A program made the translations under genes and the position numbers. DNA of 10,833 nt from Desulfobacterales bacterium (GTDB lineage Bacteria > Desulfobacterota > Desulfobacteria > Desulfobacterales > Desulfobacteraceae). Shown one piece after another: positions 1 through 4,228 of this stretch. Numbering within the stretch: position 1 is the stretch's first letter; each line of letters opens with the position of its first letter. A model generated the notes under the pieces. That model ran no database searches and was not told where the DNA came from. It was given only the letters and a program-made list of their open reading frames with translations. The stretch spans positions 1-10,833 of the forward strand of contig JAKSBB010000208.1 of assembly GCA_022361315.1 (NCBI GenBank). Direction: 5' to 3'.

Positions 1-755
1 AAATCATCGAGGATCCTCCGGGCGTCGGCAAAACTCATTTTGGTCCTGTCGCTTCTGTCATAACAGTGCCTGCAATGGAGATCGCAGGCCTGGGTGACAT
101 GCCATTGCAGGGTGAATACATCGCTTTTAAGGAAAGATTCCCCGCCGCTTCGGGCCGCATAGCGGTTTGGCGTTCTGACGATCTTTGTCTCAGGGGCAAT
201 GAGAAGGCCCTGGTCCACGGCACGGTGGATGATGGCCTGGATTTTTCCTATTGGTGTCTTTTCCCGGGCGCTCAGTGCTTCGGGATCAATACCTTCCACC
301 ACCAGTTTTAAGGCAAGCAGGTCGTCATCGGCGGCATCCCGGCAATGGACGTGGCCTGTTGTTGGAGACCGCCATATCAGGATGTGTCCTTCCCTTTTCT
401 TTGGTTCCGGAGTGTCCCGGTGATGGGCATCCGGCGCATTCTCTTCCAGAAGGTGCGGCAGGTGCTGCCATTGCACCGGCAGAAGCAGAAGCTTCGGATT
501 CACGGTGAGTACTTCAACCGGTTCCGGCTGGTTTCCGGAAGACCGGCAGAAGGTTCTGAATGCCATCTCCAATGCAGCCAGTTCTTTTAGAAAGGGTGGT
601 AATCCTTCTGTTTCCGTCATGGTACCAAGACGACGGACGAAGGCATCGGGTTCATGGGGTTCCAATGCCGCCAGAATCCTGTCCCAGGCAGTATTTCCGA
701 GGATCCTGCGGCAGTTGGAAAAATAATGGTTTAAGTTATTTAAAGATGGTTTCAT
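1..755 (-). CDS. sbtM: SbtM-like radical SAM peptide maturase, 5' part (runs off left edge)
   Basis: I translated this frame by hand: it is open from the ATG at 755-753 to base 1, giving 251 residues, with the C-terminal part outside the window. A roughly 215-residue N-terminal domain without a recognised motif (begins MKPSLNNLNHYF) precedes the radical SAM core, whose cluster motif is C224-DLH-C228-RH-C231-Y, i.e. CX3CX2C. The stretch before it (FTLQWHVTQACDLHC) is typical of peptide-maturing radical SAM enzymes. The first in-frame stop upstream is TGA at 791-789, and the ATG at 755 is the first start after it; no good Shine-Dalgarno is visible. The gene lies 56 bp downstream of the Sec-codon peptide gene on the same strand, which is the arrangement of SbtA/SbtM systems. 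In that family the maturase is thought to modify Cys/Sec in the peptide (recent family names suggest thio/selenooxazole chemistry); this is inference here. Radical SAM identity is near certain, the SbtM assignment likely. Confidence 0.85.
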   Translation of the reverse strand, partial: MKPSLNNLNHYFSNCRRILGNTAWDRILAALEPHEPDAFVRRLGTMTETEGLPPFLKELAALEMAFRTFCRSSGNQPEPVEVLTVNPKLLLLPVQWQHLPHLLEENAPDAHHRDTPEPKKREGHILIWRSPTTGHVHCRDAADDDLLALKLVVEGIDPEALSAREKTPIGKIQAIIHRAVDQGLLIAPETKIVRTPNRYAARSGGESFLKSDVFTLQWHVTQACDLHCRHCYDRSDRTKMSFADARRILDD

Positions 756-787: not shown

Positions 788-806
788 GTCATGCGAACCG
801 CATGAC
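788..806 (-). promoter_or_regulatory. bSECIS-like hairpin 3, for Sec codon 83, lying after the stop codon
   Basis: Minus-strand GTCATGC-GGTTC-GCATGAC: a perfect 7-bp stem with a GGTTC loop, starting 18 nt after the TGA at 820-818. The peptide ends (TAA 814-812) before this hairpin, so it is untranslated and no protein sequence constrains it. A perfect stem here is strong independent evidence for selenocysteine insertion at the last TGA. Confidence 0.82.
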
Positions 807-811
807 AATGG

Positions 812-1066
812 TTACCCTCAGCCGCTCTTGGGTTTTTCGGGTTTTGTGGCGGTACCGTCGTCAACCGGCGGTTTTTCCTCGTCTGTTGTGGTGTCACCTG
901 ACCCACTGTGGCTGCCGCTTCAGCCGCTCTGGGAACTACCTGTTCCCGATTTTTTATCCCCTCAGCCGCTGCTGGCGAGGCATTCCGGCACCAGGGCGGA
1001 TGAACCGGCAAGGAGACCGGCGGCACAAAATCCCGCCAGGATTTTTTTCAATTCTTTCTGATCCAT
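812..1066 (-). CDS. sbtA: SbtA-like selenopeptide precursor with three in-frame TGA (Sec) codons
   Basis: An 84-residue precursor read through three TGA codons as selenocysteine (U): positions 35 (964-962), 49 (922-920) and 83 (820-818), ending with TAA at 814-812. Start ATG 1066 has a textbook SD (TAAGGAGG, 6-nt spacing). Residues 1-34 form a leader: charged start MDQKELKK, then a hydrophobic Ala/Gly/Leu stretch with Cys14 and Cys29. The core is rich in Ser, Gly, Lys, Asp and Thr with no Cys; each U sits in Ser-Gly-U (AGC GGC TGA all three times), followed by Gly, Ser and Gly. A bSECIS-like hairpin follows each TGA. Its partner is the radical SAM maturase gene 56 bp downstream. Sec insertion would need SelA/B/C/D encoded elsewhere. 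Read conventionally, the gene is a meaningless 34-residue ORF. The alternative, a pseudogene with three nonsense codons, is unlikely given the identical contexts and hairpins. The final product and its function are unknown. Confidence 0.88.
888..906 (-). promoter_or_regulatory. bSECIS-like hairpin 2, for Sec codon 49
   Basis: Minus-strand GTGGGTC-AGGT-GAC(A)CCAC: seven base pairs with one bulged A (position 892) and a 4-nt AGGT loop. The loop starts exactly 20 nt after the TGA at 922-920, the same spacing and the same AGGT loop start as hairpin 1, although the stem sequences are unrelated. That is what a shared SelB-binding requirement would produce. Confidence 0.82.
931..947 (-). promoter_or_regulatory. 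bSECIS-like hairpin 1, for Sec codon 35
   Basis: Minus-strand GGGAAC-AGGTA-GTTCCC: a perfect 6-bp stem with a 5-nt loop. The loop begins exactly 20 nt after the TGA at 964-962. Bacterial SECIS elements lie within the coding sequence about 16-37 nt after UGA and have a G in the first two loop bases; both hold. The loop AGGU resembles the E. coli fdhF SECIS loop (AGGUCU) recognised by SelB. Confidence 0.85.
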
Positions 1067-1072
1067 GTCATT

Positions 1073-1080
1073 CCTCCTTA
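1073..1080 (-). promoter_or_regulatory. Strong ribosome binding site deciding the sbtA start
   Basis: TAAGGAGG, 6 nt before the ATG at 1066. It excludes a longer reading frame that could start near 1144 and places the leader peptide start at MDQKE. Confidence 0.85.
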
Positions 1081-3838: not shown

Positions 3839-4228
3839 ATGCCGCTTGTCAAAATAGAAACGCGGAAACCCCGGAATTCATCCCGGAAAAAAGAAATCAT
3901 GGATGCCGTCCATTCGGCCATGCGGGACGCCTTCAAAATTCCCGAAGATGACCGTGATATCAGATTCCGGGAATATCACCCGGATGATTTTCAGGTGTCA
4001 CCGGAAAAGAGCGAGAATTACATCCTGGTGGAAATAAGCATTTTCTCCGGACGGTCCCTGGATGCAAAGCGGGCGTTATACCGGGGCATCGTTACCAAAC
4101 TGGAGGCGCTGGGTATCCGGGCCACCGATGTGTTTATCGTGCTCCATGACATCCCACTGGATAATTGGGGGATTCGTGGAGGAATTCCTGCATCCGAAGT
4201 GGATCTGGGGTTTAAGGTGGATGTCTGA
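3839..4228 (+). CDS. Tautomerase-superfamily protein (Tautomerase_2 type)
   Basis: 129 residues, small cytoplasmic enzyme. After Met removal the protein starts with Pro (MPLVKIE), the catalytic base of this superfamily. GRS (71-73), the long second beta-alpha-beta half and the C-terminal block NWGIRGGIPASE (109-120) followed by LGFKVDV match the double-length Tautomerase_2 group, as in Bacillus YusQ-like proteins. The start ATG 3839 has GGAGGG at 3828-3833; an in-frame upstream extension to 3638 has no SD and reads like noise. The family includes keto-enol tautomerases and dehalogenase relatives; the real substrate is unknown. Two terminator-like hairpins follow, so it is probably monocistronic. 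Confidence 0.88.
   Translation: MPLVKIETRKPRNSSRKKEIMDAVHSAMRDAFKIPEDDRDIRFREYHPDDFQVSPEKSENYILVEISIFSGRSLDAKRALYRGIVTKLEALGIRATDVFIVLHDIPLDNWGIRGGIPASEVDLGFKVDV

Follow-up and report, generated by a model that had tools for sequence, protein, structure and literature searches.

The window, which is the whole 10,833 base stretch of DNA that was analysed, carries a well-supported new member of the known SbtA/SbtM family. This is very probably a two-gene system, with a precursor (SbtA) whose three UGA codons are predicted to encode selenocysteine (Sec), likely with the aid of RNA hairpins, and a radical SAM enzyme (SbtM) that likely makes selenooxazoles from Ser-Gly-Sec motifs. Genetically encoded routes to selenium-containing peptides are rare, and SbtA/SbtM is one of them. 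The two genes and the features belonging to the precursor are the following:

812..1066, minus strand: sbtA-like precursor gene of 84 codons with in-frame TGA at 964-962, 922-920 and 820-818 and a TAA stop; matches TIGR04081.
1073..1078, minus strand: Shine-Dalgarno sequence AGGAGG, recognised from the sequence, ending 6 nt before the sbtA ATG.
986..1066, minus strand: SbtA leader, residues 1-27, recognised by family match; signal-peptide-like by eye, with a basic start and a hydrophobic core.
1..755, minus strand: sbtM, of which the window, ending inside the gene, holds the N-terminal 251 residues; matches positions 2-236 of the 516 in profile TIGR04082 with 204 bits.

Written with U for TGA, the precursor is MDQKELKKILAGFCAAGLLAGSSALVPECLASSGUGDKKSGTGSSQSGUSGSHSGSGDTTTDEEKPPVDDGTATKPEKPKSGUG, followed by TAA. 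Its core motifs have the form SGU(G/S), in which exchange of Sec and Cys occurs across the SbtA family, and cleavage of the leader probably takes place near CLA/SSG. The original prediction had described, on a strand it did not name, an 84-codon frame with an ideal Shine-Dalgarno sequence, three TGA codons each preceded by AGC GGC, and a TAA stop, all of which is confirmed for the minus strand (1066-812). A fragment of 34 residues, which it had expected from standard gene calling, is indeed what table 11 gives from the sbtA ATG, whereas the mechanical list of open reading frames starts at an upstream GTG and gives 60 residues.

Against the NCBIfam model TIGR04081 (SbtA) the leader scores 46.7 bits (cut-off 30.5 bits, E 1.9e-12), so that the suggested search with SbtA-family models gave a match above cut-off. 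The suggested pairing of SbtA with SbtM is equally borne out, as the SbtM (TIGR04082) gene adjoins the precursor, its start codon being separated from the stop codon of sbtA by 56 nt. Since a TIGR04081 match and a TIGR04082 match lie side by side, the locus is SbtA/SbtM, and because the leader exceeds its cut-off with sbtM directly next to it, the frame is more than a product of chance. All three TGA codons follow AGC GGC; in 200,000 shuffles of the sbtA codons, GGC preceded each of the three TGA 10 times, and AGC GGC never did so. A chance open frame was rejected on the TIGR04081 match and this shuffling result. A changed genetic code was also rejected, since a tautomerase gene of the window ends in an ordinary TGA stop (4226-4228), and there is no sign of an altered code. 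A protein search with full-length SbtA returned three candidates, none at E 0.001; a search for relatives with a guessed DNA pattern gave nothing useful, and no Rfam match was found in the window at gathering score.

The window SbtM fragment falls below the TIGR04082 cut-off of 350 bits because only half of the gene is in the window: the cut-off is set for the full-length protein, and the fragment, which covers 236 of the 516 positions, reaches 204 bits. The radical SAM motif CDLHCRHCYD is encoded at 86-57 (minus strand), and the cysteines of its CxxxCxxC signature (CDLHCRHC, residues 224-231) are invariant in 75 aligned sequences. Identity to 74 aligned SbtM proteins is 29–43%, and the highest BLAST identity, among 8 listed of 49 matches, is 44.8%. 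Searches of plasmids and viral contigs with the fragment gave nothing useful. Like the SbtA/SbtM RiPPs described previously (TIGR04081, TIGR04082; Lewis et al. 2021), the window has a leader, an adjoining SbtM, SGU motifs and predicted downstream SECIS-type hairpins, but its sequence is new, differing from them in the identity of SbtM and in the linkers.

A broad set of 386 genomes contained 4 with SbtM above cut-off, and 395 genomes of one phylum contained 38, which gives 41 genomes in all (one is common to both sets); searches of 61 relatives of genome G001, and of the classes or phyla of G154 and G138, found none above cut-off. SbtA was located in the available flanks of the SbtM loci, with a leader model built from the sequences found. 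It adjoins SbtM in 34 of the 41 SbtM-positive genomes and carries one or more Sec codons in 33 of the 41, while the examined flanks of 7 of the 41 SbtM loci showed no SbtA. Including the window, 42 precursors were compared, the number of Sec being none in 4, one in 4, two in 13, three in 20 and four in one; in this list L064a, L064b and L068a were ended at a TGA taken as a true stop. The view that three Sec per precursor make the window a special case is not sustained, three being the commonest number (20/42). Sec follows Gly or Ser at 89 of 94 positions in the 42 precursors. Cys occupies motifs of this kind in the first copy at L054 (an all-Cys paralogue), in the all-Cys precursor L058, in the mixed precursors L070, L072 and L073, and in the last motif of L045. 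The comparison with homologues that had been suggested as a test thus favours Sec, as relatives carry Sec or Cys at the matching motifs. A lipobox was recognised by eye in about 14 of the 42 leaders, and a pattern sorted the leaders into 16 lipobox-like, 19 other and 7 neither.

The gene for SelB was detected above cut-off in 39/41 SbtM-positive genomes and in 16/19 SbtM-negative genomes of the same phylum. A tRNA-Sec above the 47-bit cut-off is present in 38/41 and 19/19 of these genomes, respectively, a cut-off that is loose, as several genomes have extra matches of 47–50 bits and the SbtM-negative genome G407 has only such matches and no SelB. Since selB and tRNA-Sec are also common in genomes that are negative for SbtM, their presence is consistent with Sec decoding but not specific. 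Three draft genomes with Sec-type SbtA have gaps in this set: no tRNA-Sec above cut-off was found in G448 and G595, and no SelB above cut-off in G514. Genome G105 (L029/L038) has a strong SbtM (686 bits) with neither SelB nor tRNA-Sec above cut-off and no SbtA seen, and perhaps represents a sulfur-only or orphan SbtM.

RNA signals were examined in an alignment of 42 nt from each of 64 UGA codons of relatives, made without regard to structure and with the window left out. The 64 sites come from a total of 78; besides the three of the window, two near-identical sites and nine chosen by eye were omitted (three from L064 and one each from L053, L055, L067, L054, L042 and L041), the nine being, for the most part, the leading UGA of two closely spaced ones, lacking an in-register hairpin to itself, or a doubtful Sec. 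Precursors found later are absent from the alignment. The consensus of the 64 sites is one six-pair hairpin with a short GG/GU loop, starting 14 or 11 nt after internal UGA codons. Bases are paired in 98.2% of 384 cells, a percentage raised by the removal of the nine sites by eye, and double changes occur in all six pairs (92 cells in total). Covariation was 0.617 compared with 0.276 (sd 0.019) after shuffling, with 0 of 500 shuffles reaching the observed value and slid controls giving at most 0.162; the shuffles ignore relatedness, and the sites are not independent, since some belong to the same gene or to close relatives (L048/L050, L056/L063). At 21 of the 22 terminal UGA sites in the alignment, the hairpin either follows the stop codon (9) or overlaps it (12). 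By eye, pairs of UGA codons three to eight codons apart were seen in L053, L055, L067, L054, L064 and L075. Such close pairs may share one hairpin, which, if true, would depart from the usual mode of SECIS decoding in bacteria.

A covariance model was built from the 64 sites of relatives, using no window data, and searched against both strands of the 10,833 bases. The hairpins of the window are:

931..947, minus strand: SECIS-type hairpin 1, GGGAAC AGGUA GUUCCC, after the first TGA; the best match of the model in the window (20.3 bits, E 2.2e-4), and folds.
888..906, minus strand: SECIS-type hairpin 2, with one bulged base and the loop AGGU, after the second TGA; the second-best match (10.8 bits, E 0.1), and folds.
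788..806, minus strand: candidate SECIS hairpin 3, an 8-bp stem beyond the TAA, proposed from its fold and from a layout as in relatives.

Hairpin 2 scores barely above the next match of the model elsewhere in the window (10.8 vs 9.8 bits), and of hairpin 3 the model recovers the core only (4.7 bits, E 5, rank 15 of 24 matches). The signal is clear for the first UGA and weak for the second, and only its shape and the layout seen in the family speak for the third. None of the three hairpins has an unusual folding energy (z-scores -1.24, -0.23 and -1.21 for hairpins 1, 2 and 3), and the case for SECIS elements therefore rests on the family. In the 'star' selenoprotein families, where Sec is near the C-terminus, the SECIS would likewise fall past the stop codon. 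The window SbtA resembles these families (KCU-star, GUXX-star; described in PMC13188914) in having a Sec close to its C-terminus, and differs from them in being a short, probably exported RiPP precursor with several Sec.

Read with table 11, the first TGA would be a true stop, leaving a 34-residue peptide and a relic downstream. This is extremely unlikely, as the frame stays open to the TAA and every TGA in it is preceded by AGC GGC, Sec codons are found in the SbtA motif in 33/41 genomes and are swapped with Cys, and the hairpins covary. The hairpins of the family also bear on the peptide itself. An in-frame hairpin is present at 42 internal sites, where the codon at its base specifies Gly or Ser in 41 cases and Asp in one, with the codon four further on specifying Thr or Ala in 41 and Val in one. 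Two associations are seen, one between the first base of the base codon and the silent third base four codons on (G-C 27, A-T 12, G-T 3; Fisher p 4e-8), the other between the third position of the base codon and the first position of the later codon (T-A 26, C-G 15, T-G 1; p 1.6e-10). When one site per gene is taken (27 genes), the median p values are 9e-6 and 7e-7, with kinship between the genes still present. The choice of amino acid therefore follows base pairing, and our reading is that the SECIS element writes the linker after Sec. The linker pattern GA[GV]S[TA] follows 46/59 internal Sec and 0/26 Cys, the pattern having been drawn from the same data and the Cys sites coming from few precursors. 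The linkers of the window, GTGSS and GSGDT, are variants outside this usual pattern. An RNA-shaped linker seems to be new; no literature stating that the SbtA linker is written by a SECIS was found, which is not proof of absence. Coupling of hairpin and linker indicates that the cost of Sec decoding can shape a peptide, and cautions that conserved residues beside Sec need not matter for chemistry.

The N-terminal part of SbtM, as judged by profile comparison, is homologous to the DUF2063 (PME1) partners of MNIO enzymes. In the window, this corresponds to the following feature:

180..749, minus strand: predicted domain of SbtM homologous to the DUF2063 (PME1) partners of MNIO enzymes, from hhalign.

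Comparison with myxobacterial DUF2063 proteins gave an hhalign probability of 99.88 (E 2e-32, 184 columns, 75 vs 32 sequences); of 120 listed matches in each case, profile A2 takes in 74 plus the window fragment, and profile A3 takes in 31 plus P0003. The TIGR04082 profile independently matches one of these DUF2063 proteins (E 1.7e-16), a protein that has PF09836 and is encoded next to an MNIO enzyme (PF05114, E 2e-104). The region of SbtM that aligns is the second half of DUF2063 together with the domain after it. Pfam PF09836 itself gives no call in the window SbtM fragment, and in one of six full SbtM proteins it reaches 14 bits, which is below its cut-off. The link between SbtM and PME1 appears to be new, and in the sections consulted of the literature on DUF2063 and radical SAM enzymes no passage was found that joins the two.

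SbtA/SbtM had been thought to be known from genome mining only, which is wrong, as the chemistry of SbtM in vitro has been published (PMC11002830). The enzyme was assayed with Cys and Sec substrates, both of which lose four hydrogens, and the product of the Cys substrate was identified as a thiooxazole by NMR (PMC11002830, on Lewis et al. 2021). The NMR analysis was thus of the Cys product, and the assignment of heterocycles in the class has undergone revision (PMC12668002), so that Sec could be present and SbtM could make another modification in vivo, with the oxazole being a product of the in vitro reaction. This is improbable, given that the UV maximum of modified SbtMa, near 305 nm, agrees with 5-thiooxazoles (PMC12668002) and that a common PME1-type domain fits a common product.

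DUF2063 proteins (PME1) are described as carrying a RiPP recognition domain, and MNIO pathways as making thiooxazoles on copper-binding peptides (PMC12452194, PMC12668002, PMC12538549), although one thiooxazole study is hesitant on copper protection (PMC12538549). In MNIO systems, the precursors that accompany PME1 bear Sec signal peptides (PMC12452194). Captophorins and bufferins, which combine an MNIO enzyme, a DUF2063 PME1 and a Cys-rich signal-peptide precursor, are, as described in these sources, like SbtA/SbtM in their thiooxazole product class and PME1-type domain (PMC12668002, PMC12452194), and in having a signal-peptide-like leader and repeated Cys/Sec-Gly motifs. They use Cys, whereas SbtA uses Sec, and in place of their MNIO enzyme SbtA/SbtM has a radical SAM enzyme with a fused PME1-type domain; the EGKCG and bufferin Cys motifs reported for them are absent from the window SbtA. 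The PME1 feature (DUF2063 plus RRE) is present in the window, by profile comparison, as the fused N-terminal domain of SbtM, and no MNIO match (PF05114/DUF692) was found among the eight window proteins examined or in the SbtM fragment (10.8 kb window). With no MNIO match in this stretch, the locus is not classed as a captophorin system, but SbtA/SbtM may work like one.

In the mechanism proposed, the three UGA codons of the precursor would be read as selenocysteine, likely helped by the hairpin after each, and the DUF2063-like domain of SbtM would bind the signal-peptide-like leader while the radical SAM enzyme converts the Ser-Gly-Sec motifs to selenooxazoles. The modified peptide would then be exported by the general Sec translocon, becoming a lipoprotein in the relatives that bear a lipobox. 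Once exported, the selenooxazoles may bind soft metals such as Cu(I), in the manner of the thiooxazole captophorins and bufferins, and serve as a periplasmic metal buffer. By analogy, the homology of SbtM and PME1 suggests an exported, selenium-based metal buffer, and the DUF2063 link makes the biological role directly testable through leader binding, export and soft-metal binding. A more far-reaching reading is offered tentatively, as a real possibility that falls somewhat short of an even chance: SbtA/SbtM could be the anaerobic selenium branch of the captophorins and bufferins, in which a radical SAM enzyme took over from MNIO pathways the PME1 module that binds leaders, and which produces selenooxazole metal buffers, exported via the Sec translocon, with hairpin-written linkers (GA[GV]S[TA]). 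In that case the hairpins would write the linker between Sec motifs because Sec decoding needs an RNA hairpin.

Neighbouring genes were counted as frames of at least 90 residues, up to about 8 kb on each side, at 16 loci and the window (17 in total); 20 loci had been fetched, of which L088, L093, L095 and L098 were dropped, having been missed by the SbtM motif filter. A conserved larger cluster was rejected, as besides SbtM no neighbour is common to more than 5 of the 17 loci. The only other neighbour cluster common to at least three loci was present in five, and the window shows nothing beyond SbtM. No metal gene recurs beside SbtA/SbtM (frames of at least 90 residues, 17 loci). The same modified peptide could instead be an exported antimicrobial, in keeping with a 2026 review in which TIGR04081 is named 'Selenobacteriocin' (PMC13188914). 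This is unlikely, although less so than the other alternatives, since within the same frames and loci no recurring transporter, peptidase or immunity gene was seen, the leaders by eye resemble Sec signal peptides or carry a lipobox, and SbtM has a PME1-type domain, which in MNIO systems is tied to signal-peptide precursors (PMC12452194). The lack of recurring neighbours argues against a bacteriocin cluster of the classical type and is in line with export through general machinery.

The rest of the window holds several other genes. A protein with two tautomerase-type stretches is encoded on the plus strand at 3839-4228 and has an ordinary TGA stop. On the minus strand, a small signal-peptide-like gene at 4839-4380 has an in-frame TAG (4506-4504) followed by 40 protein-like codons to a TGA; no relative was found at E 0.001 in 54 genomes, and the TAG may be a plain stop, a pyrrolysine codon or a sign of decay. 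The window also encodes a second radical SAM/SPASM protein (6368-5043, minus strand), which passes no NCBIfam cut-off among the best 25 of 65 matches; of five loci found for it, the four nearest are in Eubacteriales-type MAGs, at 32–34%. Further along the minus strand (10430-6766), a GlcD-like FAD oxidase, an FlpD/4Fe-4S protein and a LarA-type nickel racemase lie in a row. The closest model to the racemase is the LarAH6 malate racemase, with a score below cut-off, and the three genes perhaps form a hydroxy-acid utilisation operon.
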